A stretch of DNA of 64,000 nucleotides from Candidatus Nitrosocosmicus sp. (GTDB taxonomy: Archaea > Thermoproteota > Nitrososphaeria > Nitrososphaerales > Nitrososphaeraceae): the NCBI GenBank assembly GCA_029194465.1, contig JARFXS010000001.1, positions 1 to 64,000 of the forward strand, written 5' to 3'. Below the pieces are notes generated by a model that searched no databases, was not told the origin of the DNA, and saw nothing but the letters and a program-made list of their open reading frames with translations. The translations under genes were made by a program, and so were the position numbers. This document shows, piece by piece, positions 1,438 to 58,898 of the stretch (positions within the stretch are counted from its first letter, which is position 1; every line of letters starts with the position of its first letter).

Positions 1438-1665
1438 ATGGTATCTAAGAAAGTTACACCAAAGGATGATAAAAAAGGATTAGCATCTGCTGATAAAGAA
1501 ACAAAAAAGAAGGTCGCAAGTAAAGGCGGAAAGGCAAAAGCCAAGGCCACTAGCACAAAAGCCACTAGCACAAAAGCCACTAGCACAAAAGCCACTAGCA
1601 CAAAAGCCACTAGCACAAAAGCCACTACTCCAAAGAAGACCAGTGGCAGTGCCAAGAAAAAGTAA
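1438..1665 (+). CDS. Lysine/alanine-rich histone H1-like protein
   Basis: A 75-residue, very basic, low-complexity protein. About 40 residues of Lys-rich leader (MVSKKVTPKDDKKG; KGGKAKAK) are followed by five identical KATST pentapeptides and a KKTSGSAKKK tail. Composition matches histone H1 C-terminal tails and bacterial AlgP/HU-tail proteins, so nucleic-acid binding or compaction is a reasonable inference; no folded domain is visible. The ATG at 1438 is the only sensible start. The opposite strand also has an open frame over the repeat (hydrophobic, FVLVA repeats), which is a shadow of the repeat rather than a gene. Confidence 0.75.
   Translation: MVSKKVTPKDDKKGLASADKETKKKVASKGGKAKAKATSTKATSTKATSTKATSTKATSTKATTPKKTSGSAKKK
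1546..1620 (+). repeat. Five perfect 15-bp tandem repeats (KATST)
   Basis: Unit gccactagcacaaaa occurs five times with no mismatch, followed by a diverged sixth copy at 1621-1635. The unit is a multiple of three, so copy-number change keeps frame. Confidence 0.95.
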
Positions 1666-48687: not shown

Positions 48688-49216
48688 AATGTGTGGATAA
48701 ACCTACACTCTGTAAATGAGTTGAAGGTGGTCAAAATGCCGCGACTCGACACTAGACAATGCAATACTACACAGAGAAAACCTAAAGACTATTGGATATC
48801 CAAACATAGATCGAGAGTAAAGATAACTACAAACCCATTTTATGACTTTGCCTTCTTTTATACTCCTATTTTTTCATAATGTAAGAAATATGGTCGAACT
48901 CTACCGTCGAAATCAAACCTGCAATAATTCCAATATGACAAACTCTATTTCTCGCAGATTCTTAGTCGCTAGATAGGTGGATCAAAATGGTAGTTTTGAC
49001 TGCTGTATCATTTCATTCGTTGAGGGATGAGTAAATGTTAATGTTAATACTTTAATTAATCTTTGATGGGATGATTCTTCTCCCAATACGTATATACCTA
49101 ATTGCTTATTGTATATCAATTTGAATTAGATTTCCTAATTATGTTAACGGTTTGAGCTGAAAATCAATCATTAAAATCTCTCCTGGGTTTACCTGGAAAG
49201 ACCTACCCGGGAAAAA
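48688..49216. other. Intergenic
   Basis: A 62-codon frame at 48691 has no protein-like features. A few codons before 49217 (ISPGFTWKDLPGKK) may belong to the CorA gene. Confidence 0.35.
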
Positions 49217-50096
49217 ATGGATATAATATCCAAAAAATTTCCTATTCATGAGTTGAATATCGAAGACTGTTTATCAAAGAATCAACTCCCTAAGATCGAT
49301 CGATATGATGATCATATATTCGTCATACTACAGTTTCCGGCTTCTCTCAAAGGAAGAGCTGCCCCCAACTTTACTCAACTCTCCTTGTTTATAGGAAAGG
49401 ATTATCTAATTTCAATTACCCAGGGAGATCTTTATCCTTTGAATGATCTATTTAGAACTTGTAATAGCGGCGACCAGACAATCAGAAATAACTTCATGGG
49501 AGGTTCTCCAGGGTATCTATTACATTCAATTTTAGACGCGCTGGTTGATAATTTGCTTCATATATTAATGAAAATTATTGGGAACTTAGACGACATCGAA
49601 GATGAAGTATTTGATGATAAGGTGGCAAATGCGAAGGAAATATCTATCCTTAGAAGGGAAATTACTACACTTCGTAGAATAGTCTTGCCGTTAAAACGAA
49701 TCATGTTAGAAATTACTTCCAGAGATGTTAAGAGATTCTCAAGCAGCGCAGCCGAGGAAGATCTAATTGATTATTTTGATGATATTAATGATCATATATC
49801 AAAGGTATTAGAGGCACTTGATGAGTCAAAAAGAAACAATTGAAATACAAAGACAATGATAACATGTTGAATTCGAAAAAAACAAACAAGATTCGCTTTC
49901 TAAATAACAATATTGTTCATCTATCATCCCAATTACCGTGGCGGGGACTTTTTATGGTATGAACATTGTAATACCTTGCAGCGTCAATGAAGGGACACAA
50001 TTAATGATTACTTTCCACTCATCATCGCATCGCTTTCGTCACTGGCTGCAGGAGTTATGGTGTTATACCAGAAAACTAGGCTGGTTCAATTCATAG
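49217..50096 (+). pseudogene. corA: CorA-type divalent cation transporter, broken
   Basis: The main frame (49217-49843) gives the cytoplasmic half: SKKFPIHELNIEDCLSKNQL, PKIDRYDDHIFVILQFP, LLHSILDALVDNLL and the long stalk helix ILRREITTLRRIVLPLKRIM. Beyond the stop the membrane part is readable only by changing frame several times: YKDNDNMLNS, then PITVAGTFYGMNIVIP with the CorA GMN filter motif, then LIIASLSSLAAGVMVLY. The N-terminus is also short. Either a pseudogene or a badly sequenced gene; no intact Mg/Co channel is encoded as read. Confidence 0.75.
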
Positions 50097-50824: not shown

Positions 50825-51667
50825 TTTTCTATTCCCAATATACTAAAATTCCGCCTTGTTATAATGCTATGTTTTTATTTCTTATTGAAATCTGATTGGA
50901 TCCCACAAATCCGATATGATATCTTTATATGGTATTGGTAGCAAAATCTTTATATGACTAATTTTGTAGTCCTGGAACTATTGTGATATGAAGGTTAGAC
51001 GCTTACATTTAAGGTAATTATTTCCGAAAAAACAGGTAACAATATCAGTCAAAATTAGATTTTGGCAATTTGTCATTACTTTATTTGTTATCTAATAATT
51101 TTGGTATAACGCAAATTGCTTTAAAAGTTAATGTATTCTAACCAATTAGATATCCCTAGTTACATTACAACTTAGTAACAGTTTATGTCATTAATATCGA
51201 GAATTGAGAGGCAAAATAAACGCTATTCACCACCACGACTTTTTCTTCTCGATATGACTTGTCTTACTTTGGGTGATGTAATGTCAGAATAACTGAGATT
51301 TATCTTTCTCCAAAACCATTCTTAAAAAATTCTTAAAAGAAAGCCTGATTTTAGATATTCATAGAAAAATGAATTGATATCTCCTTGTTTTTTATTTATA
51401 CCAATCAGATTACCATAGTCATAGTTTGTGATCGCACTCTGACTGGAGCATTACTGCAGTGATTTTCATCATCGATGATCTTGTGTTATTAATTTTTTAA
51501 AGATCTCAATTTTCGAGATTAAGAAAAAATGATTCAATAAATCTCTTGAGTTAGTTGACTAATAATTTATTTCCATGCGATAATCTATGGACCGCATAAA
51601 ATAGTTAGATTCATAGGCTTGTACATAGAATTGAGATTATTTCAACTACGGATCAAGGTTGCAATTT
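50825..51667. other. Intergenic, about 840 bp
   Basis: Contains two copies of atctttatatg (50920s and 50950s), TATA-like direct repeats about 28 bp apart. No gene seen. Confidence 0.35.
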
Positions 51668-53097
51668 ATGAACGAAAAAAACACTCAAAAAGATGCATGG
51701 ATTGCCCTTGCAATTCTCAGCTGCCTGGCACTAATAACAATGTACGGAGAGACCATGCTAATTCCCGCGATTCCCTATTTAATAGATGACTTCAAAATCT
51801 CCTATAATACTTCATCATGGATTTTGACAGCCTATTTAGTTGCTGGGGCAGTAATGACTCCAATTATAGGTAAACTTTCGGATTTTTATGGAAAAAAAAA
51901 ATATTGGTGACGCTAATTGTGATATATTCTGTGGGTAGTTTGTTGGGCGGATTGTCTAGTGATATCTTTATGATGATAATATCGAGGATAATTCAAGGCA
52001 CTGGTTTAGCTATGTTTCCTGTTGCCTTCGCAATTATTAGAGAGAAATTTTCCATTCCAAATCTCGCTATAGGTCAAGGAATTTTTACAGCTGTTTTTTC
52101 AGTAGGTGCCGTAATCGGTCTCGGATTGGGGGCCACCATTGTCGAGCATTTTAGTTGGCATATGACATTCCTCTCAATCGTCCCTTTAATGGTAATATTA
52201 CTAGTGGTGGTACTAAGATGGGTTCAAATTGATTCGGAAAAATTCCTTTTGAAAATACGAGGTAGTATAGATATAAGCGGAACCTTGACATTGATAAGTA
52301 TAGTTTCAACATTCCTTGTGGGATTGACCCTATTACCGAATTCTATTTCTGATCCAAACAACAATTATTTGTTTTTGACCCTATCTCTATTGATGATTTC
52401 GGTAGCCCTCTTACCAATCTTCCTTATCACACAGAGACGGGCTCAATATCCTATTATGGATCTTGATCTGATGAGAGATTCGGTTCTTCTACCTGTCAAT
52501 ATATTAATAATGACCATTGGGATAGCATTTTTCATAATATATCAAACTTTGCCAATCTTGATACAAAGTCCTAACCCAATAGGATTTGGGGGAGGTCCGG
52601 TAGCCACTGCTAGCGTTCAGCTTCCATTTATGATTCTGTCATTTATAATTTCTGTCCTATCAGGATTGTTAATTTCTAGAATAGGTAACATAAAACCGAC
52701 TTTGATTGGAAGTATTTTAAGTACTTCGGGATTCTTTCTACTCTTCATATACCACCCATCAGAGCTGATGATATCATTAGAACTCTGTATCATCGCTATA
52801 GGATTGGCTTTCGCAGAAATAGGTGCTTTTAATATATCATTGGTATCTGCACCGGTAAACCAAAGCGGTTCTGCATTAGGAATCACTATGTTGTTATTTC
52901 TGATTGGAATGTCATTAGGGCCCGCGATTTCTGGGATCTATTTAGAGAGCTTTAGATCCACTATTGACGATACCAATGAGTCATATCCAACCCACGTCGC
53001 GTACGATTTGATCTTTTTAACCGCCCTAATGATCTCAATCTTGTCTGTAATACTTACTCTGTTCATAACAAAAAAACTAGTAAGTAAAGCAACATAG
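51668..53097 (+). CDS. MFS drug-efflux transporter (DHA2 type), frameshifted in A10
   Basis: About 476 residues from ATG 51668, with 12-14 TM helices. Motif A-like GKLSDFYGKKK follows helix 2; the motif-C-like segment GAVIGLGLGATIVEHFSWHM in helix 5 marks an antiporter of the EmrB/QacA group. The reading frame breaks at the ten-A run 51891-51900; one added A gives KKILVTLIVIYSVGSLLGG, the third helix, and continues to 53097. It would export drugs or metabolites using the proton gradient. No regulator adjoins it. Confidence 0.82.
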
Positions 53098-53390: not shown

Positions 53391-53771
53391 TTGAAAAGAG
53401 AACTCAATGACGTTTTTAAAGCATATATTGTGCAATTAATTATTGACAAGAAAACAGAACAGGCGATAGAAAGTTTAAGTCGATTTTATGAAATTGGGCC
53501 CCCAGATATCGTTGTAGGTACGATCAAAGGAAAGAGAAGGACCGTGTATGCAGTGTACGTTCATAGAGAAAGAAGAATTTATTGCATAAATTCGGAAATT
53601 TTTTACAATCCCTTCATAATAATGCATGAATTCTATCATCATTTGCGTACTACCGCTGGAGTTCATAAGGGTTCAGAAAAACATGCCAATATGTATGCTA
53701 TGGGCTTTATTGATGCATATAAAACTATTATGAACGTTGGGCAAAAGCATGAAGATGCCCATCCAACCTAA
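53391..53771 (+). CDS. Putative small zinc metallopeptidase
   Basis: A 126-residue protein starting at TTG (no ATG available). The motif IIMHEFYHHLR contains HExxH, and a downstream His/Glu set in GSEKHANMYAMGFIDAY could supply the third ligand, as in ImmA/IrrE-like or minigluzincin folds. The strand pair VYAVYVHRERRIYCINSEIF before it fits that fold. It may be a regulatory protease or an inactive relative. Alone on the strand. Confidence 0.7.
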   Translation: MKRELNDVFKAYIVQLIIDKKTEQAIESLSRFYEIGPPDIVVGTIKGKRRTVYAVYVHRERRIYCINSEIFYNPFIIMHEFYHHLRTTAGVHKGSEKHANMYAMGFIDAYKTIMNVGQKHEDAHPT

Positions 53772-55105
53772 ATGCTTATTTGAAAAATTGATTTAAGAAC
53801 TGTCAAACTACTTTCTATCTTAAATTAATACATTGTTGTTATGTGCTTGTTAATTTGGATTACATTGCTGCTTTTTTAGGATTGATAATTGACACCTCCT
53901 TTTCAATAATTCATAAAAGCTAGAAATAATTGATTAAAGTGAGTAACTGCTTTTTATTATGTTATATTCCTTGAAACACCAATCCTTCAGGTCTCATCCG
54001 CTCATGCCTTTGATCTTCTCCCCTTATCAGATGATTTTATTCTAACAATTCTTAACTCACTGCTTTGTTGGCGTACCCTATTTATTGCCTTTATGACATG
54101 CTGAATTTTAGGGATTGAAAGATTATTGATCGTTGAGGTTTAGCTATAGCGTAATTGTTGAATCCATTGCGTCTGATTGAACTCTAATGATTATGATTTC
54201 TAAATTTCAATTGGAAATATCAAAAATATTATGATAATCTTCGAAATTTTTTTGCACGCGATAAATCCCTATTGGATCTAGATGAAGGATATTGCATTTC
54301 CAAATGACCTCGACTACAGGGGGATATGTTTTCAGTCATTAGAAAACCACTCTCTGCACAAATGAACTATTAGAGTTCAATGACTTCAATAATAGTTTTC
54401 TTTCCTTAGGACTGAAGACTAAATGGTTGATTGCTCATCAACATGATTCAAGTTTGATGATTATAACTAATTTCATACATATGAAATAATATCAATTAAA
54501 CCCTTTAGGTTCCTCTGATAGCCACACACTATTTACTATGACTATTTTTCGTGAACAAGTTTAGATAATTCTCTGCACATGTAATAGAAGTCATCAATTT
54601 CTTACTAAACCATCTAAATTTGATACTTTGATAGTCAGAAAGTCCATGTATTTTTAACCAAATAAGATTTGGTGATGCTGCAAAAATGATTTCGCTCAAA
54701 CTATTTATCTAATAATGGTAGCGTAAGGCAAATATTCTTCATCTTTGGTAATGTTGTGGATTTAAGCTTAGTAGGAAAAGAACATCCTGTTTATTTGCTA
54801 CAATTTGGCATTTGTGTGTAAATTTGCAGGATCCAATCACTCTCATGTTTTGTTAATAAGATTAGATGATTTACAGTCAGTCAATTCATGCGATTGGGTA
54901 GAGAACTCTAATCTCTGGGTAAATATTGTCTGACAATGGTACTGAAATTGTTAGTGAAATACAGCCAAGTTAGAACTACGATTTCCTTGGGCCTATTTCA
55001 TTGAATTTTTTATCTTCGTATCATTCTTACTATAAAAAATATTGTACATTTTTTTAAGTAATGAGTTATCAAACTCCTTTATTATATAATGCTATTACTT
55101 CTTGA
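53772..55105. other. Long intergenic region, 1.3 kb
   Basis: No open frame or structure recognised on either strand. Lies upstream of the repeat protein gene. Confidence 0.4.
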
Positions 55106-56398
55106 ATGATAAAGATTTTATCATTAAGTGTGCTACTAATATTGATAGTACTAATTATAAGTGGACCTACTTCACAAATGGTTTTTTATCAAAGCGTTAC
55201 TGCCCAAGGATCAAATAGTTACGAAAGTAGTAGCTCCAATTTTGATATTAATAGCATATTTAATGGCCTTCAAAACAGTTTTCTAAATCCAACAGATGGA
55301 TTGAATTCCGACAATGCTCCAGTTCAAGGATCAAATAGTTACGAAAGTAGTAGCTCCAATTTTGATATTAATAGCATATTTAATGGCCTTCAAAACAGTT
55401 TTACCGATCCACTGGGACAAGTTGACATAACTTTTCCTCCTAAACTCGCTGACTCTATGACTCCTGTAAATCAACCAAGCTCCACTGACTCTATGACTCC
55501 TGTAAATCAACCAAGCTCCACTGACTCTATGACTCCTGTAAATCAACCAAGCTCCACTGACTCTATGACTCCTGTAAATCAACCAAGCTCCACTGACTCT
55601 ATGACTCCTGTAAATCAACCCGCTCCACTGACTCTATGACTCTGTAAATCACCAAGCCCAACTCATGACTTCCACTGACTCTATGACTCCTGTAAATCAA
55701 CCAAGCTCCACTGACTCTATGACTCCTGTAAATCAACCAAGCTCCACTGACCACTGACTCTATGACTCTATGAATCTGTAAATCAACCAAGCTCCACTGA
55801 CTCTATGACTCCTGTAAATCAACCAAAGCTCCACTGACTCTATGACTCCTGTAAATCAATGACTCCACTGACTCTATGACTCCTGTAAAATCAACCAAGC
55901 TCCACTGACTCTATGACTCCTGTAAATCAATCAAACTCCACACAGCAAACCCTCTACAACGGAAGAATCAAGCTCTACCGACTCTATAGCACCTCAGAGC
56001 GATAAATCAAGGACGAATCAAGCTCCGCAGACAAACCCTCTACAACGGAAGAATCAAGCTCTACCGACTCTATAGCACCTCAGAGCGATAAATCCAAGGA
56101 CGAATCAAGCTCCGCAGACAAACCATCTACAACGGAAGAATCAAGCTCTACCGACTCTACCGACTCTATAGCACCTCAGAGCGATAAATCCAAGGACGAA
56201 TCAAGCTCCGCAGACAAACCCTCTACAACGGAAGAATCAAGCTCTACCGACTCTACCGACTCTATAGCACCTCAGAGCGATAAATCCAAGGACGAATCAA
56301 GCTCCACTGACAAACCCACGAATGCGGCCATTGAGAAACCCGTAGGAATTACGAAGGTGATATCTCCAACCAATACAAATCCTTCAATTGAAAGCTAA
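55106..56398 (+). CDS. Repeat-built secreted Ser/Thr-rich surface protein, frame broken in repeats
   Basis: N-terminal signal peptide (~5-32, LSVLLILIVLIISGP). Then a duplicated 26-residue block (QGSNSYESSSSNFDINSIFN), a long array of 12-residue units DSMTPVNQPSST, and four ~29-32-residue units built on KPSTTEESSSTDS and SIAPQSDKSKDESSS, ending PTNTNPSIES. The first frame runs to 55639; indels inside the 12-mer array and one in the first long unit (gataaatcaagg for gataaatccaagg) break it, but the last part is open to TAA 56396-56398. The mature protein would be an extended, probably glycosylated stalk or adhesin-like surface protein. Confidence 0.7.
55205..55402 (+). repeat. 78-bp perfect direct repeat, 120-bp period
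   Basis: 55205-55282 and 55325-55402 are identical, encoding QGSNSYESSSSNFDINSIFN and six further residues twice. Confidence 0.95.
55451..55938 (+). repeat. 36-bp tandem repeats (about 13 copies)
   Basis: Four exact copies and a partial fifth from 55451, then about eight degraded copies with short insertions and deletions. Each unit encodes DSMTPVNQPSST. Confidence 0.92.
55942..56310 (+). repeat. 87-96-bp tandem repeats (four copies)
   Basis: Units of 87 bp, the last two with an extra 9 bp (gactctacc), encoding KPSTTEESSSTDS plus SIAPQSDKSKDESSS. Copy 1 lacks one C, shifting frame. Confidence 0.88.
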
Positions 56399-56799: not shown

Positions 56800-57078
56800 A
56801 TGTCTAAAAATGATCAACAGGGTCAGTGTGAGCATATCGTTCAGGCGGATTTGAAAAAGTCAGGGAATACTCAGGGTTGCGAAGAATGTGAAAAAACCGG
56901 TTCCGAATGGGTGCATTTGAGACTTTGTCTGACATGCGGTCATGTAGGGTGTTGCGATGCTTCAAGAAATAAGCACGGAACAAAGCACTATAAGGATACT
57001 ATGCATCCTGTAATTAAATCATATGAACCGGGAGAGTCATGGAAGTGGTGCTTTGTAGATGAAATATTTGCAGAATGA
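56800..57078 (+). CDS. UBP-type zinc-finger protein
   Basis: A 92-residue stand-alone ZnF-UBP domain. Ligands lie in QCEHI, GCEECEKTG, LCLTCGHVGCCDAS and NKHGTKHYKDTMHPV, with the terminal SWKWCFVDEIF. In eukaryotic deubiquitinases this domain grips the free C-terminal Gly-Gly of ubiquitin; prokaryotic copies are unstudied, so binding of an archaeal ubiquitin-like tail is only a possibility. TATA-like box ~27 nt before the ATG. No partner gene adjoins. Confidence 0.9.
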   Translation: MSKNDQQGQCEHIVQADLKKSGNTQGCEECEKTGSEWVHLRLCLTCGHVGCCDASRNKHGTKHYKDTMHPVIKSYEPGESWKWCFVDEIFAE

Positions 57079-57665: not shown

Positions 57666-58898
57666 TTAATCTGGTTCTGCTGATTTTGATTCGTTTGGAG
57701 ACTTTGACTCCGAATTGACATTATTATTTCTATTAGCCAACTTTAATCCTAACTTTATCAAGTACGGCGCTAAGAATGTAGATATTAAGGTTATAGTTCC
57801 GATAATAGGTAATATAAAAGAACTTACTACTCCAATGTCTATTCCCCCCTTCGCTACAATTAGGGACATCTCTCCACCTCGTGATGCTGAGAGATCGATA
57901 CCGGTCTGTATCGCAGTGATTTTGCTAAATCCTTGATACCTTGAAGTCAAGAAAACAATAGCGAATTTTACGACTGACGTAACACCCACAAGTATTAGTG
58001 CGGGAATTATGAATACGGGAATCAAATTGATGTCCATTAATGCTCCTACGGAAACGAAAAATAAAGCTACAAACATATCTCTTATGGGTGTCGTTAGGAT
58101 GCTTGTAACTGCGTGAGATTTTGATTCAGCTATTAATACGCCTGCAAAAAAAGCCCCAACCGCTACAGAAATCCCGAGTAAGTTTGAAACATATGCAAAG
58201 CCAAAGGCAAGACCAAGTACAGCCACTACCAAAACGTCACTCTGATTTGTCCTTGCAACAAAATCAACTAAGCGTGGAATTGTTCTCGAACCTATAATCA
58301 AAACTCCAGCAATAAATGCTATAGTTATGCCTATGGGGATTAGGATTTCCACTATCGATATATTACCCGTTACGGTGGTGGAATGTAACAATGCGAATAT
58401 AGATAGTATTATTATGTCCTCAATTATTAGAATTCCCAGAGTAAGGTATGAAGCCTCTTCTCTTAGGATTTTTAATTCTTCTAAAACCTTCATTATTACC
58501 ACTGTGCTAGAAACCGATAATGCAACTGCCATAAACAGGCTATCATAAAACGACATATTCAGTGCCTGACTAACAAAAAACCCTGCAATCATTGTTCCAG
58601 TTTGTTCAGCTAAAGTGATGATCGTAGCCCTTTTGCCAATCTTCCTTAAATTTCTAATGGGGAATTCCATTCCGACCGTAAATAGCAGCAAAATTATTCC
58701 AATTTCTGCAAATAAGTTTAAGACTTCTACATTACTGATGAAACTGAAAGGAGGGGTATGTGGGCCTATTATTATGCCAGCTCCTATGTATCCCAAAATA
58801 AGTGGCTGTTTCAACTTATATGAAATAATCGTCATTACTGCTGCGATTATCATTATTGTCGCAAAATCTTGTAAAATTTGAGTTATTTCTATAGCCAC
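57666..58898 (-). CDS. Cation/proton antiporter, CPA2 (KefB/NapA-like)
   Basis: A 410-residue, 12-TM exchanger without the KTN/TrkA-N tail of full KefB. Landmarks: LILGYIGAGIIIGPHTPPF (helix 2), AEIGIILLLFTVGMEF, SVSSTVVIMKVLEEL, and the ion-binding pair as Glu-Asp in LIIEDIIILSIFA. GVSVAVGAFFAGVLIAES-like text (ISVAVGAFFAGVLIAES) and FFVSVGALMDI follow. It likely exchanges Na+ or K+ for H+ to control cytoplasmic pH. The C-terminus is a ~25-residue Ser/Asn/Glu-rich tail. Confidence 0.9.
   Translation of the reverse strand: MAIEITQILQDFATIMIIAAVMTIISYKLKQPLILGYIGAGIIIGPHTPPFSFISNVEVLNLFAEIGIILLLFTVGMEFPIRNLRKIGKRATIITLAEQTGTMIAGFFVSQALNMSFYDSLFMAVALSVSSTVVIMKVLEELKILREEASYLTLGILIIEDIIILSIFALLHSTTVTGNISIVEILIPIGITIAFIAGVLIIGSRTIPRLVDFVARTNQSDVLVVAVLGLAFGFAYVSNLLGISVAVGAFFAGVLIAESKSHAVTSILTTPIRDMFVALFFVSVGALMDINLIPVFIIPALILVGVTSVVKFAIVFLTSRYQGFSKITAIQTGIDLSASRGGEMSLIVAKGGIDIGVVSSFILPIIGTITLISTFLAPYLIKLGLKLANRNNNVNSESKSPNESKSAEPD

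Follow-up and report, generated by a model that had tools for sequence, protein, structure and literature searches.

The window analysed here (the whole stretch of 64,000 nucleotides, from a Candidatus Nitrosocosmicus draft genome, G000, of 3.30 Mb in 263 contigs and 84% completeness) carries a repeat-rich gene, hereafter gene A, that lies among genes for two transporters, a small HExxH-containing protein and a zf-UBP protein (Table 1). The three repeat classes recognized in the initial annotation, namely a 78-bp duplicate, a 36-bp array and an array of about 90 bp, are all directly visible between 55106 and 56398. The 36-bp tandem array comprises 13.0 copies and includes a letter-perfect run of four successive copies, which, on direct reading, would not be expected from chance. 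The second array, detected at a period of 96 and with 4.3 copies, consists by unit of 36-bp pieces alternating with pieces of 50, 51 or 60 bp, resulting in units of roughly 87 or 96 bp. The region had also been described as encoding one exported protein. Export is supported by the conserved signal sequence, but the frame beginning at the start codon does not run to 56398: it is closed within the 36-bp array, which contains stops in all three frames, and the C-terminal end is back in the frame of the start codon.

Table 1. Gene A, its parts and its neighbours in the window.
Feature	Coordinates	Strand	Basis or remarks
Candidate archaeal TATA box, TATAAAAAA	55031..55039	+	About 67 bp 5' of the start codon; read from the sequence
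Signal sequence, residues 1-34, VxA|Q cleavage-like motif	55106..55207	+	Hydropathy and invariant residues
ORF actually open from the start codon, 177 aa	55106..55639	+	ORF list
78-bp duplicate, copy 1	55205..55282	+	Overlaps the final codon of the signal sequence
78-bp duplicate, copy 2	55325..55402	+	Identical to copy 1 (sequence comparison within the window)
N-cap motif TDPLGQVDITFPP, conserved	55403..55441	+	Ortholog alignment; paralog B has a similar motif
36-bp array, TDSMTPVNQPSS in each unit	55449..55941	+	Roughly 13 copies; later copies are scrambled
87/96-bp array, ESSSADKPSTTE and ESSSTDSIAPQSDKSKD plus a longer variant	55929..56317	+	Repeat scan, unit cutting
Final partial unit and C-cap ending ITKVISPTNTNPSIES, with stop	56295..56398	+	Ortholog comparison
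MFS transporter, upstream	51659..53097	+	Split into two overlapping ORFs; a single 476-aa ORF in G013
Small HExxH-containing protein, upstream	53391..53771	+	No Pfam match
zf-UBP protein	56800..57078	+	Pfam; also follows gene A in G013, G010 and G014
Na+/H+ antiporter	57666..58898	-	Beside the gene or a gene fragment in G013, G014, G007 and G003

The sequence upstream of gene A includes what we take to be the archaeal TATA promoter motif, and approximately 100 bp 5' of the gene are kept in G010 (90% over 55005-55282). A scan for bacterial-type promoters and terminators, which is not meant for archaea, returned one promoter-like site (on the opposite strand) and zero terminators, below the shuffle means. 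The locus itself is conserved: gene A or a remnant of it keeps at least one common neighbour in G013, G010, G014, G007, G005, G003, G006, G009 and G002, counting as neighbours the MFS transporter, the HExxH protein, the zf-UBP protein, the antiporter or genes just beyond these. The best zf-UBP matches in G005 and G007 are located elsewhere, away from gene A, and a search for the HExxH gene in G005 found none. The split of the MFS transporter in the window corresponds to one frame-shifting gap relative to the G013 ORF, and points to indel errors in the background of this assembly.

A first search using the 177-aa product matched 12 of 61 genomes (its own included), all from the same genus, and none of the 46 genomes outside the genus. 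A profile of the N-cap, built from 8 rows, likewise matched 12 of the 15 genus genomes. In the other three (G004, G011 and G012; 90-95% complete), no N-cap match was found, so the gene may have diverged there or be dispensable. One match outside the genus (G073, E 7.3e-4), the sole one in 55 other genomes of the family, was rejected, as it involves a 404-aa frame that looks sialidase-like when its sequence is read by eye and that matches at its start, including a hydrophobic stretch. A phage origin was also discarded, given the lack of tblastn matches to the 177-aa product in a phage collection and a locus common to relatives. Scanning public contigs for the family yielded a single locus with the same ORF as that of G014. 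Gene A is most likely a vertically inherited gene, which among the searches made occurs only in its own genus.

Complete orthologous frames of 578, 300, 504 and 688 aa were found in G013, G010, G005 and G007, respectively, the first being an intact ORF in the one-contig genome of a close relative. The ends of these four proteins are conserved and their repeats differ. Across 8 aligned orthologs, residues V31, A33 and Q34 are invariant and the N-cap carries D101-P-L-G-Q105, while the middle region varies (TDSMTPVNQPSS, TTSMEPVNQPSS, SSDDTT and others). When matches up to E 0.1 are leniently accepted, 8 of the 15 genus genomes have related C-terminal ends, and the weakest of their best matches has E 0.00125. 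Not counted were a second C-cap match in G003 (contig C18, E 0.0152), which lies in a frame lacking Ser/Thr repeats, and twelve more short matches within the G007 repeats (E 0.09). A paralog, gene B, which is distinguished by a TDPLGGIDLVFP-like motif, was found in G000, G003, G005, G007, G010, G013 and G014. We also observed a third type of N-cap (MITILSFNVLF...) in G001 and G008 (L039, 1-342, and L038, 4115-4300), in both cases ending at contig ends. The G001 gene of this type carries DADSIAPQSDSSSES repeats, and no neighbour was common with locus A or B in the stretches read.

The product of gene A is predicted to be exported, acidic, rich in Ser and Thr, and unanchored. The hydrophobic stretch of the signal sequence reaches a peak mean hydropathy of 2.47-2.83 in the four complete A orthologs, and is followed by the cleavage-like motif, where residues at positions -3 and -1 are those considered by the classical rule for signal cleavage. 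Beyond residue 35, Ser and Thr make up 36-47% of the same four proteins, which have net charges of -26 to -95. N-glycosylation sequons number three in the G005 protein and zero in the remaining three. Among 8 complete A- and B-type proteins, none has a hydrophobic segment after the signal sequence, and cysteine is missing from seven and occurs once in the eighth. Searches of five A and B proteins returned no Pfam or NCBIfam family above cut-off, and the N-cap profile matched no sequence in the PDB. A sub-threshold LRR_11 match in one of the five (17 bits versus a cut-off of 29) was disregarded. A structure model of the 177-aa piece had a mean pLDDT of 46.1, a value compatible with disorder and equally with the two-sequence alignment from which it was built, and the model is hence uninformative.

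Proteins of this kind are already known, although this one matched no named family in the libraries searched. The serine-rich repeat glycoprotein adhesins of Gram-positive bacteria are exported proteins of variable length with Ser-rich repeats, and the A proteins share these traits, having a signal peptide and a long Ser-rich repeat region. Unlike those adhesins, they are archaeal, with no homology shown, and neither a cell-wall anchor nor a ligand-binding domain was identified (8 proteins considered for hydrophobic segments and 5 for families). Pfam revealed no accessory Sec/glycosyltransferase cluster among six neighbouring ORFs, of which only four had any Pfam match. Mucin-like proteins and yeast proteins of the Flo/Als type have Ser/Thr-rich tandem repeats that change in copy number, as do the repeats here, but again no homology is shown and no anchor was seen in the A proteins. 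Closer to the present organism, four putative serine-rich adhesins are described in a genomic island of the skin strain Ca. N. epidermidis, in an excerpt of PMC13245735 (2026). These are serine-rich and probably from the same genus; compared by description only, they differ in being island-borne, whereas gene A occupies a conserved locus. The S-layer proteins (slp) of other ammonia-oxidizing archaea resemble the A proteins in the proposed place in the cell coat; they differ in that the A proteins matched no named family in the Pfam, NCBIfam and PDB searches above, and in that the genus is reported, in a passage of PMC11559005, to be without slp. No description of this repeat gene was present among the open-licence literature matches listed, which is weak evidence of absence.

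The initial annotation had suggested a stalk or adhesin at the cell surface, a proposal that gained no support from the proteins scanned, given the absence of a hydrophobic segment after the signal (8 proteins) and of domains above cut-off. The export signal, the repeat region and the conserved caps would be consistent with a genuine adhesin, in which the N- or C-cap would be the head that binds surfaces or other cells and the repeats would form its stalk. Moreover, N. franklandianus forms biofilms as well as aggregates, and the attachment of these aggregates is described as unclear (in a section of PMC12448741). We nonetheless regard an adhesin as unlikely, since the caps are short and the proteins have neither an anchor nor a recognized binding domain. 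Instead, we infer that gene A encodes a secreted, extended polyanion of the extracellular coat or matrix.

The repeats of gene A differ between closely related species. G000 and G013 are 93-97% identical in 36 of 44 aligned neighbouring ORFs, yet recognized copies of the 36-bp unit start with ACT or ACC in 12 and 0 cases in G000, versus 0 and 11 cases in G013. In the second array, the same split is seen at three more sites (3-4/0 in G000 versus 0/10-11 in G013, for copies recognized by patterns). This full separation of diagnostic variants by species indicates that the arrays, as they appear in the two assemblies, have turned over since G000 and G013 split. Copies are more alike within than between these species, and such species-specific, near-identical copies present the pattern of concerted evolution. 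Exact runs are also found in other genus members: G013 has 12 successive 36-bp units and 8 successive 87-bp units, G007 has 14 units of a 93-bp repeat, and G005 has 25 units of an 18-bp repeat. The 78-bp duplicate occurs as two identical copies in both G000 and G013, and as a single copy in G010 and G014. The repeat turnover and length variability suggested earlier for this gene are thereby supported by comparison between species (orthologs of 300-688 aa with species-specific repeats), and the exact copies reflect genuine homogenisation. Mechanistically, unequal recombination or slippage would alter the copy number and sequence of the repeat units, and variants would spread through the array by concerted evolution. 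As the unit lengths are divisible by three, protein length could vary while the frame is kept.

Exact copies beside degraded ones, as originally noted, are both present in the assembled sequence, but the degraded copies are most likely absent from the organism. When aligned against a perfect 36-bp array, the 493 bp of the first array in the window show 10 frame-breaking gaps and 5 substitutions, and 356 bp of the second array, set against a constructed reference, show one of each (gap counts in the arrays vary with the reference constructed). In the 87-bp alignment of G013, gaps of 47 and 4 give a net 51, which is in frame. As a control, 44 neighbouring ORFs of G013 were aligned to the window; over their 32,826 bp, 27 frame-breaking gaps occurred alongside 1873 substitutions. 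The 36-bp array is therefore distinct both in gap density (10 in 493 bp versus 27 in 32,826 bp; Fisher's test, P ~1e-10) and in its ratio of gaps to substitutions (10:5 versus 27:1873; P ~5e-15). The control ORFs were mechanically called in G013 (at least 100 aa, aligned over at least 90% to the window) and may include multi-copy or spurious genes. Two partial ORFs were dropped (the repeat gene itself and one running off the window), and ORFs with no match were skipped uncounted. The region at 49131-50096, compared with a 325-aa G013 ORF, had 9 frame-shifting gaps, the highest number in any of the 44 ORFs, and represents a noisy or decayed gene. With these 9 of the 27 control gaps in a single ORF, and 12 more around paralog B (see below), frame-shifting gaps also occur outside the arrays, a point against the favoured reading.

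The array of paralog B in G000 is similarly scrambled, with 21 gaps and 6 substitutions in 486 bp. The contrast is weaker in this case, as the background is higher (8 surrounding ORFs, which total 4,917 bp after one partial ORF was dropped, show 12 gaps and 321 substitutions). The count is further weakened by the poor fit of the array model to the B array of G013, which has 25 substitutions and 6 frame-breaking gaps although its 407-aa frame is open. In both the 36-bp array and the paralog B array of G000, about four perfect units come first, followed by break-up. Family members also tend to lie where draft assemblies end: 6 of 11 N-cap matches in draft genomes (that of the window left out) are at most 250 bp from a contig end, compared with none of the HExxH genes, as counted by hand in 11 draft genomes (in G000, this gene is >10 kb inside the window's contig). 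For example, the two halves of the G014 gene are found at the ends of two contigs. Another draft genome, G002, has an A gene broken within its repeats (L028, contig C323, 2888-3627). Frequent misassembly has reportedly been encountered in a study of Als repeat genes.

Judging by the assembled sequences, the degraded copies are probably assembly noise, because the second repeat gene is similarly scrambled, neighbouring ORFs are much less affected, and the family is often at draft contig ends. All these observations are consistent with noise in arrays that exceed the read length, and agree less well with real decay or phase variation. Recombination and assembly collapse, put forward initially as alternatives, both seem to apply, in that homogenisation accounts for the exact copies and assembly noise best explains the irregular ones. 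A true pseudogene, with an array decayed by genuine indels in this strain, might be suspected from the array stops that occur in every frame, the likewise broken paralog B, and the frame-shifting gaps in some neighbouring ORFs. However, both ends of the gene are intact and alignable, the first four units are perfect, and the changes in the array are mainly indels, unlike those in neighbouring ORFs. Decay would also need to have struck two repeat genes on different contigs simultaneously and chiefly inside their arrays, and we consider it very unlikely. A phase-variable switch, by which frame-shifting repeats toggle the protein on and off, would agree with frame breaks located inside repeats but is extremely improbable, as the four complete orthologs are open through periods of 18, 36, 87 and 93 bp, all multiples of three, so that copy changes keep the frame, in contrast to contingency genes with units not divisible by three and on/off frame shifts.

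Taken as a whole, we favour, with moderate confidence, a secreted repeat polymer of the coat or matrix, found in this genus only in the searches made, that undergoes in-frame repeat turnover, with the frame breaks in the window resulting from assembly errors. Its architecture would comprise a signal sequence, a short N-cap, a long repeat region rich in Ser, Thr, Asp and Pro and acidic in character, and a conserved C-cap. Cleavage of the signal peptide would release an extended, disordered and perhaps O-glycosylated chain, and the polymer would form part of the extracellular coat or matrix in archaea that reportedly have no S-layer. Counting against this explanation are the missing anchor or adhesion domain, the uninformative structure model, the few sequons, and the 3 of 15 genomes in which the gene was undetected.

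According to parts of PMC11559005, Nitrosocosmicus lacks S-layer genes (slp), and its cells bear hair-like surface filaments of ~30 nm, the composition of which is reported there as undetermined. Hypothetically, gene A could be tied to these hair-like structures or to aggregation. A more specific version, in which the A and B repeat proteins form the backbone of a ~30-nm hair-like coat that replaces the S-layer and the fast-changing repeat number sets hair length, seems quite improbable. The two-paralog family, secreted by prediction and found solely in this genus in the searches made, nevertheless offers a concrete candidate for the outermost layer and for aggregate attachment, and it illustrates how draft genomes cut or scramble such genes. 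Elsewhere in the window, a 75-aa ORF rich in Lys, Ala, Thr and Ser (1438-1665, forward strand), presumably resembling histone-H1-like tails, contains a perfect 15-bp repeat that is present in 5.5 error-free copies.
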